A stretch of 64,000 bases of DNA from Streptantibioticus parmotrematis. Its GTDB lineage: Bacteria > Actinomycetota > Actinomycetes > Streptomycetales > Streptomycetaceae. The stretch lies in NCBI RefSeq assembly GCF_019890615.1, contig NZ_JAINVZ010000003.1, positions 310,001 to 374,000 of the forward strand, in the 5' to 3' direction. Shown here in pieces: positions 40,671-52,109 of this stretch. The first letter of the stretch is position 1. Each line of letters opens with the position of its first letter. Position numbers and translations under genes: made by a program. Below the pieces are notes generated by a model, which was not told the origin of the DNA, did not search any database, and worked only from the letters and a program-made list of their open reading frames with translations.

Positions 40671-42104
40671 TCAGCCTCGGTCGGCGGCCAGCAGCGCGCG
40701 GGCGACGCGCAGCGCGGTACCGGGCCGGGTCAGCAGCTCCGGGCGCTCGCGCATGTTCACCACGTCGAGGAACCGGCGGTAGACCTCCGGGTCGAGGGCG
40801 CAGGCCCGGCCGAGGCGGGCGCTGTACCACTGGGCGGCCCGGAATCCGGCCGGGTAGGGGCCGTCGACGTGCGGCTGGGCCAGGTCGCCGATGGCCGACA
40901 GCTGCCAGGCCGCGTCGACCACGACACGTTGCCGGACGAAGAAGTCCCGGGCGGGCTCGTCGACCCGGCCGCCCGAGCGCAGGTACGCCGACAGGCAGGA
41001 CGCGTGCAGGGCGGCCGACGTCATGCCCTGGCCGTAGACCGGGTTGAAGGAGGCGGCGGCGTCGCCGACCACGACCAGCCCGGCCGGGAAGCGGCTCAGC
41101 CGGGTGAACTCCCGCCGCCTGCTATCCGGCACCCGGTGGCACACGACGTCGCCGAGGATCTCGCACCCGGTCGCGATCTCGCGCACCGGCCCGGCCGGGA
41201 TCGCGGCGCAGCGCTCCACGAACTCGCGCGGGTCGCGGGTCGGACGGCGTGCGGCGTACCCGGCCAGGACCATCATCCACCGGCCGCCCTCCACCTCGGC
41301 CACGGCGGCCGAATCGGGCTGCGGTGACCCGGCGGGGGCCGGGGTGGCCATCGCGGTGGTGACGGCGACGTCGGGGAGTTCGGGGCCGCGCCGCAGCAGG
41401 GCGGTGGCGTAGCCGAGGTCGATGGCGATGCGTTCGACCGGGGGCGGCTGCCAGCCCGCCTTCTCCAGCCAGGTCCCGATCCGGGTGCCGCGGCCGGTCG
41501 CGTCCACCACGAGGTCGGCGGCGAGGCAGACCCGGCGGGTGCGCGCGGACCCGGCCGCGAAACCGTCGTCGTCGGTCGCCGGTGTGTCGGTGGGCAGGTA
41601 GAAGGCGCCGCACACCCGCTGGTCGACGGTGTTGGCGGTGAAGCGCAGGCCGTCCGCCCGGCCGCGCGCCACCTCGACGTTGGGCAGGCCGAGCACCCGG
41701 CGCCGCACCCGCTCCTCCAGGAACGGGCGGGTGGAGCTGATCAGGTCGTGCCCCGGGATGAGCGGCCGCCGGACCCCGTCGGTGTACTGGTGGACCCGCT
41801 CGCCCGCGCAGAACACCGCGCCGTCGCCGAGGAGTTCGTCCGACATGCCGGGCAGCCAGCGGTCCAGCTGGGTGCGGCCCATGGCCATCAGCACGTGCAA
41901 CTGCACCCCTTGCGGCACGCCCAGGCGGGGGCCGCTCGCGACTCCCCCGCCGCCCGGCCCCTCCGTCGTACCACCCGGTCCGGCGTGGCCGACGGCCGTG
42001 AGGTCGTCCGGTTCGACGATCACGACCCGCTCGGCGTGGTCACTCAGTACCCTGGCCGCCAGCAGCCCGGCGACGCTGGCCCCCAGCACGACAGCCGTAC
42101 GCAC
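40671..42104 (-). CDS. FAD-dependent monooxygenase / squalene-epoxidase-like oxidoreductase
   Basis: A 477-residue flavoprotein. The Rossmann start RTAVVLGASVAGLLAARVL binds the FAD ADP moiety. The second FAD motif is FPAGLVVVGDAAASFNPVYGQGMTSAALHA (G-D then the proline-rich turn), as in aromatic hydroxylases, geranylgeranyl reductases and squalene epoxidase. LVVDATGRGTRIGTWLEKAGW is the usual middle motif. The GTG at 42104 has GAGGGG five bases before it. It diverges from the squalene/phytoene synthase-like gene, and the two share a 177-base promoter region, which suggests that it oxidises that enzyme's product. This is inference; the substrate is not known. Confidence 0.87.
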   Translation of the reverse strand: MRTAVVLGASVAGLLAARVLSDHAERVVIVEPDDLTAVGHAGPGGTTEGPGGGGVASGPRLGVPQGVQLHVLMAMGRTQLDRWLPGMSDELLGDGAVFCAGERVHQYTDGVRRPLIPGHDLISSTRPFLEERVRRRVLGLPNVEVARGRADGLRFTANTVDQRVCGAFYLPTDTPATDDDGFAAGSARTRRVCLAADLVVDATGRGTRIGTWLEKAGWQPPPVERIAIDLGYATALLRRGPELPDVAVTTAMATPAPAGSPQPDSAAVAEVEGGRWMMVLAGYAARRPTRDPREFVERCAAIPAGPVREIATGCEILGDVVCHRVPDSRRREFTRLSRFPAGLVVVGDAAASFNPVYGQGMTSAALHASCLSAYLRSGGRVDEPARDFFVRQRVVVDAAWQLSAIGDLAQPHVDGPYPAGFRAAQWYSARLGRACALDPEVYRRFLDVVNMRERPELLTRPGTALRVARALLAADRG

Positions 42105-42281
42105 AACTCCCCCTCGCAATCTGCGGTGTTCCCCCACCGCACCTTAAGGGGCACGCACGGGCCGTGGGTCCCGGTCACGGCGTGCGGCGCGGCGTGATCC
42201 ACTGTCCCGGAGCGGTTCGCCGGGGTCCTGTCCCGGGCGCGGGACCGCCACCGCAACGTGGGACGAGGAAGGGCAGCCGGG

Positions 42282-43193
42282 ATGGGCGCATGGGAGAAGT
42301 CACTCGACGCGGCCGGGGTCCGCGACGCGGCACTGCGCGCCGACTACACCCGGCAGCGCGAGGTGGTCGTGCGCTTCAAGCGCGACGCCTATCTCGCGGC
42401 GCTCCTGCTGCTGCCGCGTGAGCTGTTGCCGCACGTGGTGGCGGCGACCGCGTTCATGCACACCTGCGACAACCTGCTCGACAGCGGCCCGAAGGAGGGC
42501 CGGGCGCAGGTGTGGGAGGCGTGGGAGCGCGAGGTGCGCGCCGGGCTGGCGGACGGCAGCGCCCATCCCGATCTGCGGGCCCTGCTGCACAGCGCGGCGC
42601 TGCGGCCCCGGCTGGGCGAACAGGTGGACGCCTACCTGGGCACGGCACGGGCGGACCTGGACTTCACCGGGTTCGCCACGGAAGCGGACCACCGGCGTTA
42701 TGTGGAGCGCTACTCGCTGCCCGCGTTCCTGCTCGTCGCCTGCCTGCTGGAGCCGGAAGGGGACGCCGCCCGGGCCGCCTTCCGCACCGCCTGCCGGACC
42801 TACATCGACGCGGCGCAGCGGCTCGACTTCGTCAACGACCTCGCCGAGGACCTGGCGACCGGACGGCTCACGCTGCCGCTGGAGACGCTGGAGCGCTTCG
42901 GCGTCACCCGCGACGACCTGGAGGCCGCCCGGGACACCCCGGCGACGCGCGAGCTGGTCGCGTACGTGCAGCAGCAGGTACGCGACGGGCTCGCCGCCTC
43001 CCGGCGGCTGATCGCCGACGTGCCGCCGGTGGGCCGGCCGCTGCTGCGCGCCCTGACCGGCCTGGACGCGCTCACGCTGACGGCGGCGCGGGCCGAGGGC
43101 GCGGGGCTGCTGCGTGGCCCGGCGAAGGCGTCGAAGCCGGGGACGGCGGCGGTGCTGCTGCGCGAGTGGGTCAACGCCCGTCGCGGGCGCTGA
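42282..43193 (+). CDS. Squalene/phytoene synthase-family enzyme
   Basis: A 303-residue all-helical protein. The first Asp-rich site is D63-N-L-L-D67 (MHTCDNLLDSGP) and the second is D182-FVN-D186-LAED (RLDFVNDLAEDLATGRLTLPLE), the arrangement of head-to-head prenyl synthases that join two isoprenyl diphosphates. The ATG at 42282 is chosen because GGAAGG lies nine bases upstream. The first motif is DNxxD rather than the commoner DDxxD. No phytoene desaturase or hopanoid cyclase is adjacent, so the product is open. Its stop lies inside the end of the convergent HTH gene (23-base overlap). Confidence 0.85.
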   Translation: MGAWEKSLDAAGVRDAALRADYTRQREVVVRFKRDAYLAALLLLPRELLPHVVAATAFMHTCDNLLDSGPKEGRAQVWEAWEREVRAGLADGSAHPDLRALLHSAALRPRLGEQVDAYLGTARADLDFTGFATEADHRRYVERYSLPAFLLVACLLEPEGDAARAAFRTACRTYIDAAQRLDFVNDLAEDLATGRLTLPLETLERFGVTRDDLEAARDTPATRELVAYVQQQVRDGLAASRRLIADVPPVGRPLLRALTGLDALTLTAARAEGAGLLRGPAKASKPGTAAVLLREWVNARRGR

Positions 43194-44337: not shown

Positions 44338-44629
44338 GCGGACGTCCTGGCCTTTCCGGCTCCCGCGTGCTGTTGCGTACTTCCGCGTACTCCTGCGTGA
44401 TGCTGCGTGCTTCCGCGTGCCGCCGCGCCAATTCGCTCAATTCTGAACGACTTCCAGCATCTTGCCATGCACATGACGCGACGTGCAGTCTTTCGTGCGG
44501 CGCCCCCCACGACCCCCTGGTCCTCGCCCCAACGGGGACCAGGGCCGTACCGCGCACCACACGCAAGCAGCCCGCACAGCCCTGCGCAAGCACCCCCCAC
44601 AAACCCCCCACGATTCGAGGGAGTTCCCC

Positions 44630-45442
44630 ATGCCCCACAAGGGTTCCGCACGCCTCCTCACGGTCGCTGCGGGAGCCGCGGGCCTCGCGCTCGCCGTCAC
44701 CCCCGCCGCGCACGCCGCCGCACCGGCCGCCCACCACGCCCACCCGGCGCAGGTCAGCCCGTCCGTCGCCCGCCACGAGAGCCACGACCTGCGCAACGTC
44801 CGCGAGGCCGGCAAGCACGCCGGAGTGACCTCGGGCAACTGGTCCGGCTACGCCGCCACCGGCTCCAGCGGCAGCGACACCTCCGTCTCCTCCTCCTGGG
44901 TCCAGCCGTCGATCACCTGCGGCGACCAGGACACCTACTCCTCGTACTGGGTGGGCCTCGACGGCTACAACAACTCGGCGCTGGAGCAGACCGGCACGGA
45001 GGCCGACTGCATCGGCGGCCAGGCGGAGTACGGCGCGTGGTGGGAGGTGCTGCCCGCGTCCGAGAGCCCGTACTCGGTCACCGTCGCCCCCGGCGACCAG
45101 CTCACCGCGACCGTCACCGACAACGGGGACGGCACCTTCACCATGACGCTCGCCGACTCCACCCAGGGCTGGACCAAGACCACCAAGCACGCGGGCTCCT
45201 CCGGCTACCAGGACAGCTCCGCCGAGGTCGTCGCCGAGGCGACCAGCGTCGGCGGCCAGATAGCCCAGCTGTCGAACTTCGGCGAAGTCGACTTCACCGG
45301 CTCCACCGCCAACGGCCAGTCCCTGGACAGCACTTCGCCCACCGAGATCACCATGCAGAACCAGGACAGCGGCGACGTGATGGCGCAGCCCGGCTCGCTG
45401 TCCGGCGGCGACTTCTCCGACACCTGGGAGAACTACAGCTGA
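44630..45442 (+). CDS. Secreted G1-family (eqolisin-like) glutamic endopeptidase
   Basis: A 270-residue protein. The signal peptide is SARLLTVAAGAAGLALAVTP, with cleavage near AHAA-AP, and a short propeptide follows. The mature domain (about 70-270) shows the G1 features: NWSGYAATGSSG, SSWVQPSITC, YWVGLDGYNNSALEQTGTEADC with the catalytic-type Gln in LEQTG, and SAEVVAEATSVGG with the catalytic-type Glu of the S-A-E strand. Two cysteines (SITC, EADC) can pair. G1 peptidases are acid-active. GAGGGAG precedes the ATG. It is transcribed alone and closed by a long terminator. Confidence 0.88.
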   Translation: MPHKGSARLLTVAAGAAGLALAVTPAAHAAAPAAHHAHPAQVSPSVARHESHDLRNVREAGKHAGVTSGNWSGYAATGSSGSDTSVSSSWVQPSITCGDQDTYSSYWVGLDGYNNSALEQTGTEADCIGGQAEYGAWWEVLPASESPYSVTVAPGDQLTATVTDNGDGTFTMTLADSTQGWTKTTKHAGSSGYQDSSAEVVAEATSVGGQIAQLSNFGEVDFTGSTANGQSLDSTSPTEITMQNQDSGDVMAQPGSLSGGDFSDTWENYS

Positions 45443-45525: not shown

Positions 45526-45814
45526 TCATGTTCGGGGCAAGCCAGTTCGGGTCCGACTCCGTCGGGTGAACGAGGGCCGGGACGCGGCCTGAAGGGGGGC
45601 ACCGTACCGCAAAATCGGGACCGCCATGGGCTGCTGTCACAAGCGAGGTGATTATGCGTCAGCCACAACCGGAGGACGGCTATGCTACTTGCGGCTCAGC
45701 GTGTTGTCGCAATTACGCCTGGTCAACGCATGCCTTCTGACCTGCGAAGACCTTCCCCCTGATGCCGAATTTCGCTGGTCCGATTCCCTGTCTGTCGACG
45801 GTTTGAGGATGCTG
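45526..45814 (+). promoter_or_regulatory. Conservon leader region
   Basis: This stretch should hold the conservon promoter. From about 45650 it is noticeably less GC-rich than the coding sequence. The cvnA frame is open through it, but the residues encoded are unlike CvnA. No convincing hexamer pair was identified. Confidence 0.4.
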
Positions 45815-47449
45815 ATGGTTCGTAGAGGATCGTCAACCGGAGTCTCCCGGCCCGCCTCGGGTCTCGCCTGGTTACTGCCGGCTCTCGCGGTCGCCGTGTG
45901 CACCGCGGTCGTGGCCGCGGCGACCACTTCGGCAGCCCGCGCGCCGGTGATCTGGTGCGGTGCGGCCGCGCTGGTCGTGGTGGCCGCGGTCTCCGTCGTG
46001 GGATCGCGCCGCGGCCGGGCGCTGGCCGACCTGCGGCGCCGGTACGACCGCCAGGAGCAGTCGATCGCCCGCCGCCTCGCCCGGCACGACGAGGAGACCG
46101 CCCGCATCGCCGAGGTGCTGCTGCCCATCGGCCTGACCCGGTTGCGCAAGGGCGAGAGTCCGCTGGACGTGCTGGAGTCGATGGCCACCCAGGAGGTGGC
46201 GAGCGGCACCCCGTTCAACGCGTCGCACCGCAGGGTGCTGCGCGAGGTGCTGGAGATCGTCTCCACCGAGGAGGACCAGCGCGACTCCGCGCAGCGGGCA
46301 TTCGTCAACATCGCCCGCCGCGTCCAGGCCATCACCCACCAACAGGCGCAGGACCTGCGGGAGATGGAGGACCGGCACGGCGCCGACCCCGAGGTCTTCG
46401 GCGACCTGCTGCGCATCGACCACGGCACCGCGCTCATCGGGCGGCTCGCCGACAGCATCGCCGTCCTCGGCGGCGCCCGGCCGGGCAGGCAGTGGAGCAG
46501 GCCGGTCCCGCTGTTCAGCGTGCTGCGCGGCGCGATGTCCCGCATCCTCGACTACACCCGGGTCGAACTGCACTCGGTCACCGAGATCGCGATCGTCGGC
46601 CCCGCCGTCGAGCCGCTCATCCACGGGCTGGCCGAGCTGCTCGACAACGCCACCCGTTACTCGCCGCCGCAGACCATGGTCCATCTGACCGCGGTCGAGG
46701 TGCAGTCGGGCATCGCCGTCGAGATCGAGGACGGCGGCGTGAGCCTCAGCGAGGAGGCACGCCTGCGGGCCGAACGCCTGCTGCTCCAGGCCCAGGCGGG
46801 CATCGACCTCAACGACCTCGGCGAGACCCCGCGGCTCGGTCTCGCGGTCGTCGGCCGGCTCTGCCAGCTGTACGGGTTCCAGGTCGCCCTGCGCCCGTCG
46901 GCGTACGGCGGGGTGCGCGCGGTGCTCATCGTGCCGTCCGAGTACCTCACCACCGCCCCCGCGCCCGGCCGGGCGCACGGCATCGGCGCCGTCTCCGCGG
47001 GCACCCGCACCGAGAAGGCCCCGCCGCGCACCACCCTGCCGCGCATCAGCACCCCGCAGCGCCCGGTGCAGCACCCCGGTGTACGGTCCGGCTCGCGGGC
47101 GGCGCGCACCTCGGTGCCCAAGCCGCCTCCCCCGCCGTCGTTCGAGGACGACATCCCGATCGTCACCGAGCGCACCGCCAACGGGCTGCCGCAGCGCCGG
47201 CGCCGCCTGCCGGGTGTCATGACGCGCGGCCACGCGCGGCCCGCGACCGGCTCCGCCCCGAGCGCCCCGGCCGCCCCGCCCTCGGTGCGACCGGCCGACC
47301 CGGCGGCAGCGAAGCCGTCCGAGGATCCCGTACAGCCCGGTATGTGGCTGGCCGCCTTCACCAGTGCCGTGGCCGGCGAGAGCCCGGCTCCGGGTGAGGC
47401 GTGCGACAAGAGCGACGAGTCGTCGGACGAGCCGGACAAGGGTGAATAG
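45815..47449 (+). CDS. cvnA: CvnA-type sensor histidine-kinase-like ATPase (conservon 1)
   Basis: A 544-residue membrane sensor of a conservon, the Streptomyces four-gene G-protein-like system. Two TM segments lie near residues 16-60 (LLPALAVAVCTAVVAA and VIWCGAAALVVVAAVSVV), followed by a long helical linker and the HATPase domain: N-box HGLAELLDNATRYSPPQT, then VEIEDGGVSLSEEA and RLGLAVVGRLCQLYGFQVALRPSAYGGVRA. A disordered Pro/Ala tail closes it. No conserved phosphorylatable His box is evident, as usual for CvnA. The ATG at 45815 has GAGG six bases before it. Codon 20 is TTA (45872-45874). The three following genes overlap or nearly touch, so all four are one operon. Confidence 0.93.
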   Translation: MVRRGSSTGVSRPASGLAWLLPALAVAVCTAVVAAATTSAARAPVIWCGAAALVVVAAVSVVGSRRGRALADLRRRYDRQEQSIARRLARHDEETARIAEVLLPIGLTRLRKGESPLDVLESMATQEVASGTPFNASHRRVLREVLEIVSTEEDQRDSAQRAFVNIARRVQAITHQQAQDLREMEDRHGADPEVFGDLLRIDHGTALIGRLADSIAVLGGARPGRQWSRPVPLFSVLRGAMSRILDYTRVELHSVTEIAIVGPAVEPLIHGLAELLDNATRYSPPQTMVHLTAVEVQSGIAVEIEDGGVSLSEEARLRAERLLLQAQAGIDLNDLGETPRLGLAVVGRLCQLYGFQVALRPSAYGGVRAVLIVPSEYLTTAPAPGRAHGIGAVSAGTRTEKAPPRTTLPRISTPQRPVQHPGVRSGSRAARTSVPKPPPPPSFEDDIPIVTERTANGLPQRRRRLPGVMTRGHARPATGSAPSAPAAPPSVRPADPAAAKPSEDPVQPGMWLAAFTSAVAGESPAPGEACDKSDESSDEPDKGE

Positions 47450-47451
47450 CC

Positions 47452-47859
47452 ATGATGCAGTTGCGAGCCAACATGGACTGGATGCTCAAGGACCTCGCGC
47501 AGAGTGTCCCGCAGACCCGCCAGGTGGTGGTGCTGTCCTCAGACGGCTTGCGGATCGCCCAGTTCGGCGGCGAGCCCGACGCGGCGGACCGGCTGGCCGC
47601 GGCCTGCGCGGGGCTCCAGAGCCTGGCCGCCGCGGTGGGCGCGGAGTTCCCGCACAGCGACGGCCGGATGCGGCTGGTCGTGATCGAGATCAACGGCGGC
47701 TACTTCTACCTGATGGCGGCGGGCGTGGGCGCGTACCTCGCGGTGCTGGCCGACGAGGGCGTGGACGCCGGGCTGATGGGCCACCGGATGCGCGACCTGG
47801 TGGCCCGGATCGGCGAGCACCTGAGCAGTCCGCCGCGCCATGACGGGCAGGTCACATGA
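47452..47859 (+). CDS. cvnB: CvnB roadblock/LC7 protein (conservon 1)
   Basis: A 135-residue roadblock/LC7-fold protein: NMDWMLKDLAQSVPQTRQVVVLSSDGLRIAQ, LAAACAGLQSLAAAVG and MRLVVIEINGGYFYLMAAGVGAYLAVLAD. In bacteria such proteins act as partners or GTPase-activating factors for small GTPases (MglB-MglA type); in conservons CvnB binds the complex with CvnD. The start is 2 bases after the cvnA stop and the end overlaps cvnC (ATGA), showing tight coupling. Confidence 0.95.
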   Translation: MMQLRANMDWMLKDLAQSVPQTRQVVVLSSDGLRIAQFGGEPDAADRLAAACAGLQSLAAAVGAEFPHSDGRMRLVVIEINGGYFYLMAAGVGAYLAVLADEGVDAGLMGHRMRDLVARIGEHLSSPPRHDGQVT

Positions 47860-48215
47860 GCGAATCCGATCAGGCGTGGGAGAGCGGCGAGCCCGAACGG
47901 CCGTACGTGGTCACCCGGGGGCGCAGCGGTGCGGACGACAAGGCGCCGCTGGACCTGGTGACGCTGATCGTCTCCCGGTCGGTGCCCGCTCCGGGCATGG
48001 AGCCGGAGCAGTCCAACGTGCTGCGGCTGTGCCGCTCGCCGCTCTCCGTGGCCGAGATCTCCGCGTACTTACATCTTCCGGTCAGCATGGTCAGCGTGCT
48101 CGTCCATGACCTGCTGGCCGAAGACCGGGTGGAGGCACGCTCGCTGGTCCCGCCGGCGCAGCTCCCCGATCCGGCGATCATCGAGGCGGTGATGTATGGA
48201 CTTCAAAAGCTCTGA
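47856..48215 (+). CDS. cvnC: CvnC DUF742 protein (conservon 1)
   Basis: A 119-residue DUF742 winged-helix-like protein: RPYVVTRGRSGADDKAPLDLVTLIVSR, LCRSPLSVAEISAYLHLPVSMVSVLVHDL and a C-terminal amphipathic helix. It is a constant part of conservons and is thought to belong to the membrane complex. Codon 72 is TTA (48069-48071), the second rare leucine codon in the operon. It overlaps cvnB by 4 bases and cvnD by 20. Confidence 0.95.
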   Translation: MSESDQAWESGEPERPYVVTRGRSGADDKAPLDLVTLIVSRSVPAPGMEPEQSNVLRLCRSPLSVAEISAYLHLPVSMVSVLVHDLLAEDRVEARSLVPPAQLPDPAIIEAVMYGLQKL

Positions 48216-48834
48216 CCCGGTCGACGGAGTCGGCACGATCGTAGGGCCGCGCAGTGAGGACCTGCTGCCGTCGTCCGCCGCCGCGGCGGTGAAGATCGTG
48301 ATCGTGGGCGGCTTCGGCGTGGGCAAGACCACCCTGGTCGGTTCGGTCAGCGAGATCAGGCCGCTGACCACCGAGGAGACGATGACCCAGGCGGGTGTCG
48401 GCGTGGACGACACCGCCGGGGTCGAGCGCAAGACCGCGACCACCGTGGCGATGGACTTCGGGCGTATCAGCATCAACCGCGAGCTGGTGCTGTATCTGTT
48501 CGGCACCCCGGGCCAGCAGCGTTTCTGGTTCCTGTGGAACGGGCTGTTCGAAGGCGCGCTGGGGGCGGTGGTGCTGGTCGACACCCGTCGCATCGAGGTC
48601 AGCTTCGACGTGATCGGGCGCCTGGAGGAACGCGGGGTGCCGTTCGTGGTCGCCATGAACACCTTCCCCGACGCCCCGTCCTATCCCATCGACGAGCTGC
48701 GGGCGGCGCTGGACCTGCCGGAGCAGGTGCCGATCGTGGACTGCGACGCGCGCAAGCGGGCCTCCAGCCGCGACGTGCTGATGACGCTGATGCGGTATCT
48801 GCACGCGATGACGCTCAACCCGGCGGGAGCGTGA
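48196..48834 (+). CDS. cvnD: CvnD small GTPase (conservon 1)
   Basis: A 212-residue ATP/GTP-binding protein, the G-protein of the conservon. P-loop GGFGVGKTT (about 39-47), switch region TQAGVGVDDTAGVERKTATTVAMDFGRI, LFGTPGQQRFW in place of the DxxG motif (as in MglA/Arf-like bacterial GTPases), and VAMNTFPDAP at the N/TKxD position. It starts within the end of cvnC. A terminator hairpin follows directly, so the P450 behind it is probably expressed at a lower level or separately. Confidence 0.95.
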   Translation: MDFKSSDPVDGVGTIVGPRSEDLLPSSAAAAVKIVIVGGFGVGKTTLVGSVSEIRPLTTEETMTQAGVGVDDTAGVERKTATTVAMDFGRISINRELVLYLFGTPGQQRFWFLWNGLFEGALGAVVLVDTRRIEVSFDVIGRLEERGVPFVVAMNTFPDAPSYPIDELRAALDLPEQVPIVDCDARKRASSRDVLMTLMRYLHAMTLNPAGA

Positions 48835-48934: not shown

Positions 48935-50542
48935 GTGACCGCTTCCCATCCGGACAACTCCCGCCTCGATTCACTGCTCGGACCGCCGCCCGGCTGTCCG
49001 GCCCACGGGCTCGGCCCCGACGGGCTGCGCAGGCTCTACGGACCGGAGGCCGACGCCGACCCGCGCGGCCTGTACGCGAAACTGCGCGCCGAGTACGGCG
49101 CGGTGGCCCCCGTGCTGGTGCCGGGCGACTTCCCGGCCTGGATCGTGCTGGGCCACAGCGAGAACCTGGAGGCGATGCGCAACCCGTCCCGTTTCTCGCA
49201 CGACTCGCGCCGCTGGCGGGAGATGCGCGAGGGGCGGGTGCCGCCGGACTCCCCGCTGCTGGCGGTCGTCACCTGGCAGCCGATGTGCTCCTTCCTCGAC
49301 GGCGAGGAGCACGAGCGGCTGCGCGCGGCGGTGACCGACAGCATGGACCGCTTCGACAGCCGTGGCATGCGCCGCCATGTGACGCGTTTCGCCAACCAGT
49401 TGATCGACGATTTCGCCGGCGAGGGCCTGGTGGACATCGTGGACCGCTTCGCCCAGCACCTTCCGATGCTGACGATGACCCAACTGCTGGGGATGCCGGA
49501 GGAATACGGGCCGCGGCTGGTGGACGCCACCCGGGACATGATGCAGGCGTCCCCGACGGCGCTCGCTTCCAACGAGTACCTGGTCAAGACGCTGCGTCAG
49601 CTGGTGGACCGCAAACGGGCCGAGCCCGCCAACGACTTCGCCTCCTGGCTGCTGACCCACCCGGCAGAACTCGACGACGACGAGGCGGTCGAGCAGCTGC
49701 GGATGGTGCTGATCGCCTCATACGAGACGACGGCGAACCTGATCGCGACCACCCTGCTGATGGTGGTGACCGATCCGCGCTTCCGTTCGTCGCTGGCGGG
49801 CGGTTCCATGACGCTGCCCAACGCGGTGGAGCAAGTGCTCTGGGACACCCCACCGTTCGCGCGGGTCTACGGCCGCTGGGCCACCGGCGACACCGTCTTC
49901 GCCGGACAGCACATCAAGGCGGGCGACATGCTGGTGCTGGGGCTCGCGGCGGCCAACTGCGACCCGGTGGTGCGCCCCGACCTGAACGTGCCGATGCACG
50001 GCAACCGTTCCCATCTGGCATTCAGCGGCGGCCCGCACGAGTGCCCGGGGCAGGACATCGGCCGGGCGATCACCGAGGTCGGTATCGACGCGCTGCTGAT
50101 GCGGCTGCCGGACGCCCGGCTCGCAGTGCCGGAGGAGGAACTGCGCTGGGAGTACAACGTGCTGTCGCGGCGCCTGATGTCGCTGCCGCTGGAGTTCACG
50201 CCGCCCAGGTCGCCGTCGCATCCCGAGTCGGTGTGGCGCAACGCGACGGCCGCGCAGTCGGCGCCGGCCGACGGCGCGCTGGCCGGCGGTGTGGTGGCAG
50301 GCTTCGGCGACCCGGTGGCCTCGACGTCGATGGGCGTGGTGACGGCTGCCGTGTCCGTCCCGGCGGCGCGCGAGGAGGCCCCGGCTTCCGCGGCCGAACG
50401 GCAGGCGCCGGAACGGCTGCCCGAGGTGGCACCGGAACCGGTGCGCGGCGGATCGGACCCGGTCGAGGGTGCCCGGGGCCGTGGCGGTCCGGTGGCCCGG
50501 TGGTGGCGGGCCGTGGAGCGGTGGTGGCGCGGGGAGGTGTGA
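48935..50542 (+). CDS. cvnE: CYP157-type cytochrome P450 (CvnE) lacking the ExxR motif
   Basis: A 535-residue conservon P450. The I-helix is VLIASYETTANLIATTLL. The K-helix, where P450s have ExxR, reads E299-Q-V-L-W303; CYP157 proteins are known to carry EQSLW-type sequences here, so the Arg is missing. The heme loop HLAFSGGPHECPGQDIGRAI is intact with Cys370. Normal P450s end near 410-420; here a disordered Ala/Pro/Glu tail of about 110 residues follows, ending in VARWWRAVERWWRGEV, a Trp-rich amphipathic helix that could bind membrane or a partner. The GTG at 48935 has GGAG five bases before it. Whether the enzyme is catalytic or structural is open. It converges on the terpene synthase gene. 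Confidence 0.92.
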   Translation: MTASHPDNSRLDSLLGPPPGCPAHGLGPDGLRRLYGPEADADPRGLYAKLRAEYGAVAPVLVPGDFPAWIVLGHSENLEAMRNPSRFSHDSRRWREMREGRVPPDSPLLAVVTWQPMCSFLDGEEHERLRAAVTDSMDRFDSRGMRRHVTRFANQLIDDFAGEGLVDIVDRFAQHLPMLTMTQLLGMPEEYGPRLVDATRDMMQASPTALASNEYLVKTLRQLVDRKRAEPANDFASWLLTHPAELDDDEAVEQLRMVLIASYETTANLIATTLLMVVTDPRFRSSLAGGSMTLPNAVEQVLWDTPPFARVYGRWATGDTVFAGQHIKAGDMLVLGLAAANCDPVVRPDLNVPMHGNRSHLAFSGGPHECPGQDIGRAITEVGIDALLMRLPDARLAVPEEELRWEYNVLSRRLMSLPLEFTPPRSPSHPESVWRNATAAQSAPADGALAGGVVAGFGDPVASTSMGVVTAAVSVPAAREEAPASAAERQAPERLPEVAPEPVRGGSDPVEGARGRGGPVARWWRAVERWWRGEV

Positions 50543-50679: not shown

Positions 50680-51825
50680 TCAGTACAGGTGCTGTTCCAC
50701 GTAGACGGGTGCCTGGCCTGCCGGGCCGAAGCCGCCGTCCTGGTAACGCGGGCTGGTGCGGTGCCAGTTGAGGCTGCCGGAGATCCAGGCGCCCAGGTCG
50801 GTGAGCGAGTCCTCGACCCGGCCCCACGCCTCGTCGTCCAGCCCGTACAGGAACCGCATGCCACGCAGGTCCTTGCAGGCCTGGAGGAAGTCGCGGGTGG
50901 ACTCGGCGATCATCCCGGCGACCCGGTCGAGGGTCTCCTGCCAGCTGTCGCCGGTGATGTCCTTCAGGACCGCGACGATGTTGTGGTCGTGATCGCCGCG
51001 GGCGAGTTCCTTGCGCACCGAGTAGATGTCGTTGGTCCAGGTGATGATGTCGTTGGCGGCCAGGCGGATCGCCCGGTAGGGGTCGCTGTCCGCCACGACG
51101 GCCGGGACCTCGGCGGCGTTGGCGACCTCGCTCAGGTCGAAGAACATCTCGCAGCCGGAGAACAGCCGCCGCCTGCGCACGAATCCGGTCAGTTCCGGTG
51201 CGGTCCCGTACGCCCCTGGCTGACGGGGTAACGGCAGCACGCTGAAGACGAGGTAGTCGCGGTAGTGCGCGGCGAACCGCTCACGCCAGGCGCGGGACAT
51301 GGGCCCGGCGGTGCGCCGCCACAGGTCGGCGATGGCGGCGACCGCGGGTCCGCCCGCCGGGACCGCCGGTCCCGTCACGGCCACCGGCCGCACCGCGGTG
51401 GCCGGTTCCGGTGTCATGAGGGGTAGCGGGGTCATGGCCGGTTCCGGGGTGGCGGCCGGTTCCGGGGTGAGCTGGGCGATCAATTCCTCGATGAACAAGG
51501 CCTGCTGGGAGGACGGGTCAGTGGCGCGGTTGTCCTCGTGACCCTCGTCGAGCTGGTCGTCGAGTATCCAGCTGTAGACCGTCCATTCGGCGACCAGCCG
51601 CAGTCGCTCGGCCCTGGGGTAGACGTCGGCGGCGAACTTTCCGAACCCGCAGTCCTTCAGGTGGCGTTCCGCCTCCGGGCTGCGGACGAGGTCGAATCTC
51701 CTTGCCCAGTCGATCAGGTGTTCCTCGATCCCGGCGGCGCGGGGATTAACCCGGGCGGGGAACGGGCACCAGAGTGTTGGGATCCCCACGGCAGGCGGTT
51801 GGGAAGGCGCCCTGCTGGCAATCAT
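50680..51825 (-). CDS. Class I terpene synthase (conservon-linked sesquiterpene-type cyclase)
   Basis: A 381-residue terpene cyclase that would ionise a prenyl diphosphate through a Mg2+ cluster. The Asp-rich motif is D89-D-Q-L-D93 (WILDDQLDEG). The NSE triad is N265-x3-S269-x3-E273 (TNDIYSVRKE), and a C-terminal RY pair (SPRYQD) is present. Residues about 120-160 are an inserted Pro/Ala/Glu low-complexity loop (PEPAATPEPAMTP) absent from typical family members. The ATG at 51825 has AAGGAG five bases before it. Codon 199 is TTA (plus-strand 51229-51231). Terpene cyclases beside CYP157 and a conservon occur in other Streptomyces. The product cannot be predicted. Confidence 0.93.
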   Translation of the reverse strand: MIASRAPSQPPAVGIPTLWCPFPARVNPRAAGIEEHLIDWARRFDLVRSPEAERHLKDCGFGKFAADVYPRAERLRLVAEWTVYSWILDDQLDEGHEDNRATDPSSQQALFIEELIAQLTPEPAATPEPAMTPLPLMTPEPATAVRPVAVTGPAVPAGGPAVAAIADLWRRTAGPMSRAWRERFAAHYRDYLVFSVLPLPRQPGAYGTAPELTGFVRRRRLFSGCEMFFDLSEVANAAEVPAVVADSDPYRAIRLAANDIITWTNDIYSVRKELARGDHDHNIVAVLKDITGDSWQETLDRVAGMIAESTRDFLQACKDLRGMRFLYGLDDEAWGRVEDSLTDLGAWISGSLNWHRTSPRYQDGGFGPAGQAPVYVEQHLY

Positions 51826-52109
51826 CACGACTCCTTGACCGGTTGTCACTGCGCTCCTGGACCACAACTGTCCCCTGAGTGCAGTGTGTTAATACGGTCA
51901 TCCCCCACCATGCCCATGAACATTCAACGTCACGGCATGGATTCGATACGGTCGAGTAGTACGGAGGGACAGGTTCCATTTTAGTCCCGAACCGACGCTG
52001 GACGATCAATAATGATCGGCGTGGCGGCGGAGCCGGATTCGGCCGTTCCGGTCCGCCTACCGTGGGCCCGCGCCCTCGACTCCCGTACCGGGCGCGGAAG
52101 GTGGTGCGT

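Follow-up and report, generated by a model that had tools for sequence, protein, structure and literature searches.

Conservon G-protein-like signalling affects development and antibiotic production in Streptomyces. To our knowledge, no function has been accepted for the CvnE P450s since conservons were described, and bacterial P450s are usually viewed as soluble enzymes. Conservons 9 to 12 contain P450 genes, and CvnA7-13 have very short outside regions (PMC8510531). According to a 2026 study, accessory genes of the CvnE and CvnF kinds accompany CvnA proteins without an outside sensor domain, CvnF8 raises the ATPase activity and autophosphorylation of CvnA8, and CvnE11 is predicted to contact both HATPase domains of CvnA11 (PMC13343842). 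CYP157 proteins are described as lacking EXXR: CYP157C1 reads EQSLW, and the S. virginiae members read EQILW and EVLW (PMC3599690). The K-helix part of our finding is therefore already known.

Here we analyse a member of this known kind, CYP157/CvnE, encoded in a 64,000-nucleotide stretch of Streptantibioticus parmotrematis DNA (the window), whose C-terminal tail is a candidate membrane anchor. The open reading frame pointed out in the earlier note is present on the forward strand (48935-50542). It encodes a 535-residue P450 with the C-terminus given there, VARWWRAVERWWRGEV, and lies directly 3' of a complete cvnABCD set, which is the gene position of CYP157/CvnE. The gap between cvnD and cvnE is 100 bases, and the K-helix sequence EQVLW conforms to the CYP157/CvnE signature, EQ(S/I/V)LW or (x)EVLW. 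The features referred to below are as follows.

45626-47449, forward: cvnA, sensor-kinase-like (coordinates taken from the first ATG in the open frame)
47452-47859, forward: cvnB, Roadblock/LC7 (PF03259, 8.8e-22)
47856-48215, forward: cvnC, DUF742 (PF05331, 6.5e-32)
48196-48834, forward: cvnD, small GTPase-like (PF03029, 1.8e-31)
48935-50542, forward: cvnE, CYP157-like cytochrome P450, 535 residues (open reading frame, family match, model and alignment)
49724-49732, forward: I-helix E264-T265-T266, oxygen-activation residues still there (alignment)
49832-49843, forward: K-helix Q300-V-L-W303, replacing EXXR (alignment)
50042-50044, forward: Cys370, haem ligand, in FSGGPHECPG (alignment)
50204-50479, forward: Pro/Ala-rich linker, residues 424-515, fast-evolving (model and codon comparison)
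50480-50539, forward: C-terminal Trp/Arg amphipathic stretch, residues 516-535, with a predicted helix at 519-531

For cvnA, comparison with relatives makes a start near 45815 more likely. The encoded protein contains two neighbouring hydrophobic segments, at 80-98 and at 108-126 in the open frame, with a short loop between them; it has a HATPase_c domain at 330-437 and no extracytoplasmic domain in its sequence. This minimal outside loop agrees with the published pairing of CvnE and CvnF with sensor-less CvnA (PMC13343842, PMC8510531). Many CvnA proteins of group 2, which lies outside the window's clade, apparently have a single N-terminal hydrophobic segment and not two (e.g. L094, L068, L105).

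The next gene 3' of cvnE lies on the opposite strand and encodes a class I terpene synthase (50680-51867, reverse). Directly 5' of cvnA is a Peptidase A4 family protein (44483-45442, forward), and farther away are a squalene/phytoene synthase family gene (42258-43193, forward) and a possible FAD-type oxidoreductase without a Pfam match (40671-42137, reverse). The nearest relative of the window P450 with a species name comes from Streptomyces sp. ICBB 8177 (L013; 95% identity in the alignment). It shares the conservon and the terpene synthase, which adjoins cvnE on the opposite strand there as well (L013:7807-8991). The named Streptomyces loci L013-L025 match the window P450 at 56-93%, none of them bearing a CYP label, and a PHROGs search gave no match. 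The genome has five CvnD-like genes, and a P450 of the CvnE kind occurs in two of its five conservons, the one in the window and G000:C11. The remaining three (L207-L209) lack a P450, and none of the ORFs found there ends in a Trp-rich stretch, which speaks against the tail being a general accessory feature of conservons.

For comparison we assembled 190 distinct, untruncated CvnE-like P450s from 200 loci, 13 of them from GTDB contigs, together with 73 EXXR-bearing P450s as controls, the two sets being split by score. One CvnE-like row, L112, was included through a lower score limit; L017, whose tail is cut by the contig end, and eight rows whose core ends were identical (272 to 264) were left out. 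Sixty regions were hand-chosen from a longer match list, to which the loci it returned were added, so the proportions below describe the sample and not the whole class.

The core of the window protein is a P450 fold. AlphaFold2, run with 100 aligned sequences, places 364 residues at a pLDDT of at least 90, and Foldseek finds its best solved match in S. coelicolor CYP154C1 (E 8e-25; TM-score by target length, 0.86). By sequence, the best matches among solved P450s are the CYP154-type hydroxylases 7cl9, 6l69 and 1gwi. The haem-ligand motif FxxGxxxCxG is intact, and its Cys is present in 190/190 CvnE-like relatives. The EXXR motif of the superfamily is absent, QVLW standing in its place. Alignment to solved P450s and a MAFFT alignment of the 190 and 73 sequences both assign residues 300 and 303 to the EXXR pair, so that the Glu is replaced by Q300 and the Arg by W303. 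The earlier note was right about EQVLW at 299-303, about the loss of the Arg, and about the precedent in CYP157 (CYP157C1, EQSLW; PMC3599690). Counting from E299-x-x-L302, it took the Arg as the sole loss, but in the alignment the Glu is gone too.

These replacements are general in the sample. At position 303, 187 of the CvnE-like P450s have Trp, 2 have Tyr and 1 has Thr; at position 300, 84 have Glu, 79 Gln, 15 Asp and 12 another residue. In the controls both Glu and Arg are invariant (73/73); a one-residue gap in tblastn had made the Arg seem missing from nine of them, a reading that the MAFFT alignment overturned. At the Arg position of CvnE, an Arg-to-Trp substitution is favoured over deletion of the Arg codon because the ungapped reading keeps the next Asp/Pro of group 2 in register. 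The third member of the E-R-R set, the meander Arg, is present in 72/73 controls and rare in CvnE by MAFFT, in a region that aligns poorly; a motif count gives 2/191 CvnE against 59/73 controls. Asn357 is kept in 179/190 CvnE. Trp94 is kept in 185/190, and it is also common in the controls (58/73).

The tail extends about 112-115 residues beyond the core end (residue 420-423), in line with the roughly 110 extra residues claimed earlier. AlphaFold2 gives most of linker residues 446-515 a pLDDT below 50 and the terminal helix block 519-531 a pLDDT of 69, which is modest confidence; in the group-2 paralogue L094 the helix is shorter (500-506) and of low confidence (pLDDT ~45). At least 35 residues follow core position 420 in 126/190 CvnE-like P450s, and fewer in 64/190; this cut-off and those of the last 18 and last 14 residues were set after the tails had been inspected. 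The linkers of the 126 tailed members contain 23% Pro and 20% Ala, have a net charge of about zero per 18 residues, and are prone to indels. Their last 18 residues, by contrast in make-up, contain 23% Arg and 12.6% Trp with a mean net charge of +4.0; a Trp occurs there in 117/126 tails and at least two in 98/126. The combination of at least two Trp and a charge of at least +2 in the last 18 residues is found in 91/190 CvnE-like P450s versus 12/817 other ORFs of the same loci, one of these 12 being a duplicate CvnE row, which puts the tail composition beyond chance. Among the 73 EXXR-bearing P450s of the same loci, none has WW within 22 residues of the end, and one has the pattern [WF]xx[LFVIMA]xx[WFL] at the end. 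The tail ends vary in their letters and keep the pattern and the charge (WWRRLL, WRRFLEWWRGY, FLGRVAGWFGMRRK, GFWASLVGLFRRRR), and in family f18 Trp is swapped for Phe or Leu while charge and helix pattern are kept. We found no report of a CvnE terminal Trp helix in the literature searched, and the main text of PMC13343842, searched by word, makes no mention of a tail or terminal anchor. Within that literature the conserved helix appears to be unreported.

Within the sample, tails are found in four bacterial families and in every main clade of a FastTree phylogeny rooted on 23 EXXR P450s, a quick tree with long branches. They are present in 76/80 members of the window's clade, 41/44 of the DEVLW clade, 5/8 of a small clade and 4/58 of the NEVLW clade, whose earliest branches are the four tailed rows; the 64/190 members without a tail belong mostly to one clade. 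This distribution needs a minimum of 5 changes on the tree. It fits one early gain of the tail with later losses, several gains being the alternative. The earlier note had offered absence of the tail from all close orthologues as grounds for giving up its proposal; the tail is instead found in the closest relative as well as in nearly all of the window's clade. A codon comparison of the window P450 with this relative, L013, counts 3 amino-acid and 38 silent differences in the core (34-423), 19 amino-acid and 15 silent differences in the linker, which also has 3 gap positions, and 3 amino-acid and 2 silent differences over the final 20 residues. That one pair, then, does not clearly show stronger conservation of the end than of the linker. 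Over 49 disjoint pairs, similarity is higher in the last 14 residues than in the linker for 38, the same for 1 and lower for 10 (Wilcoxon p 4e-6). The tail-less relatives are mostly still linked to a conservon, which indicates that the tail is dispensable in some lineages. Compensation for its absence by extra CvnA membrane segments was considered and rejected, as two segments are the usual number in CvnA of tail-less group 3 and of tailed group 1 alike.

The terminal stretch has the properties of an amphipathic helix. Its maximal hydrophobic moment over 11 residues averages 0.645, versus 0.454 when the same 18 residues are shuffled; 61/126 tails beat their own shuffles at p<0.05 and 65/126 do not. 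The HeliQuest discriminant, 0.944 × moment + 0.33 × charge, has a cut-off of 1.34. It is exceeded by 98/126 tailed members, 5/64 tail-less CvnE ends and 6/73 controls, and with the added condition of a moment above 0.4 the counts are 49/126, 0/64 and 0/73. The window tail scores 1.88 and the end of E. coli FtsA (from NC_000913) 1.91. FtsA is described as carrying a C-terminal amphipathic helix joined via a flexible linker (PMC3384640), and the window protein likewise ends in a terminal amphipathic cationic helix, as predicted, on a flexible linker. From these features we infer that the CvnE tail binds the membrane. Of the two anchoring sites suggested in the earlier note, the membrane fits well with the disordered linker, the cationic Trp helix and the exchange of Trp for Phe or Leu. 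The other, the CvnABCD complex specifically, finds no support in the linkage counts given below.

We propose, with a probability of about 0.58, that CvnE is an accessory P450 of the conservon in which the E-R pair of the K-helix has been replaced and the tail helix sits in the inner leaflet in the manner of FtsA, holding the P450 near CvnA as a haem-based signal input. The proposal starts from the operon, the replaced residues, the conservation of the tail and its amphipathic, cationic make-up, all of which are observed. The gene would be the CvnE accessory P450 of a conservon, an actinobacterial G-protein system. Its short cationic Trp helix, following a long disordered linker, would lie in the inner membrane leaflet and keep CvnE at the membrane beside CvnA, itself membrane-embedded and without an outside sensor domain, while the linker would supply the reach to the HATPase domains. 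The haem pocket might then sense a ligand, a gas or the redox state and modulate CvnA, as the literature and the genomic context suggest. The loss of residues regarded as indispensable in P450s, together with the retention across much of the family of a helix resembling a membrane tether, suggests a membrane-bound sensor or regulator and not an ordinary free enzyme. The published proposal for CvnE and CvnF would allow such a role in sensing (PMC13343842). The terminal helix and the replaced core residues thus give CvnE a testable role, membrane-held haem sensing for G-protein-like signalling.

A wider version of this proposal is more tentative, and we consider it possible without expecting it. 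Here the CvnE P450s as a class would be membrane-tethered haem receptors that gave up the E-R-R lock, gained the anchor of linker and Trp helix early, and now serve as a detachable sensor on the cytoplasmic side that replaces the outside domain of the kinase. The tether would draw the P450 towards the kinase, and through it the state of the membrane (its charge, lipid or potential) may gate the signal.

The Trp helix might instead be a docking peptide for a protein, such as the HATPase domain of CvnA, CvnB or a redox partner, and not a lipid anchor. Short Trp-rich helices on linkers are typical protein-docking motifs, and WW and RG recur strongly at the ends of the registered tails, in which positions 0, 3 and 6 are fixed by construction and only the other positions inform. 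The predicted contact of CvnE11 with both CvnA11 HATPase domains points the same way (PMC13343842). However, the motif tolerates changes of Trp to Phe, Leu or Val and shifts of register, as expected for a lipid and not for a specific groove. The linkage data also speak against a Cvn partner. Most tail-less members still have cvnD next to them (52/64, within 800 bases upstream). Conversely, ten tailed members (L056, L057, L062, L064, L065, L083, L153, L156, L185 and L190, the last with no Trp in its tail) have no CvnA-D match within at least 3.8 kb on each side. Docking to specifically Cvn proteins is therefore less favoured; docking to a partner encoded elsewhere is possible and compatible with the linkage data. 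Overall we regard protein docking as unlikely.

More doubtful still is an ordinary monooxygenase whose link to the conservon is incidental and which goes to the membrane to reach a hydrophobic substrate, for instance a terpene. The I-helix E264-T265-T266 is intact in the window protein, and a terpene synthase adjoins cvnE both here and in the closest relative, but that synthase is on the opposite strand. The first and third residues of the I-helix site (acid and Thr, ExT) are kept in 66/79 members with Gln300, compared with 8/111 others and 71/73 controls. Catalytic capacity may therefore differ by branch, being possibly kept in the Gln300 branch that includes the window and lost in the others. 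In groups 2 and 3, outside the window's clade, Trp303 and Asn357 are kept where the I-helix Glu/Asp-x-Thr is mostly lost too. Against an ordinary monooxygenase stand this loss in the other branches, the loss of the K-helix Arg in 190/190 and of the meander Arg almost always, and the position of cvnD within 800 bp upstream in 161/190 CvnE-like P450s.

Of 23 group-2 loci that have a CYP154-like P450 downstream, about 16 show an apparent start for that gene some 90 bases ahead of the CvnE stop; the Trp tail may therefore share its DNA with the partner's start in these loci. That the tail is a non-functional read-through or overlapping-gene effect, as this overlap and the variable, low-complexity linker might suggest, is nevertheless highly improbable, because GC3 stays coding-like at ~0.9 throughout the tail, the terminal 14 residues are better conserved than the linker, and the motif occurs in group 1, where 22/23 tailed loci of at least 8 kb have no downstream same-strand P450.

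The membrane-held accessory P450 that we favour can be set beside four known systems. The window protein resembles CYP157C1 of Streptomyces coelicolor in its position after cvnD, its P450 fold, its replaced EXXR (EQVLW versus EQSLW) and its retained haem Cys; the accessible parts of the CYP157 and CvnE accounts make no mention of a terminal Trp helix (PMC3599690, PMC13343842, PMC8510531). It shares its fold, at ~30% identity, with the CYP154 family, which has the nearest solved structures (1gwi, 6l69). Unlike the window P450, CYP154 combines an intact EXXR with E-T-T and has no tail, and CYP154-like, EXXR-bearing P450s sit downstream of many group-2 CvnE relatives. Like the membrane-targeting sequence of E. 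coli FtsA, the tail joins a flexible linker to a terminal amphipathic helix with Trp, Leu and Arg/Lys, and the two are nearly equal in hydrophobic moment and charge. The P450 core is unrelated to FtsA, so the likeness is one of analogy and not homology, and membrane binding of the P450 is what it leads us to infer. CvnF is likewise an accessory gene beside a sensor-less CvnA and is proposed to feed CvnA (PMC13343842); unlike CvnE, it carries a GAF domain in place of the P450.
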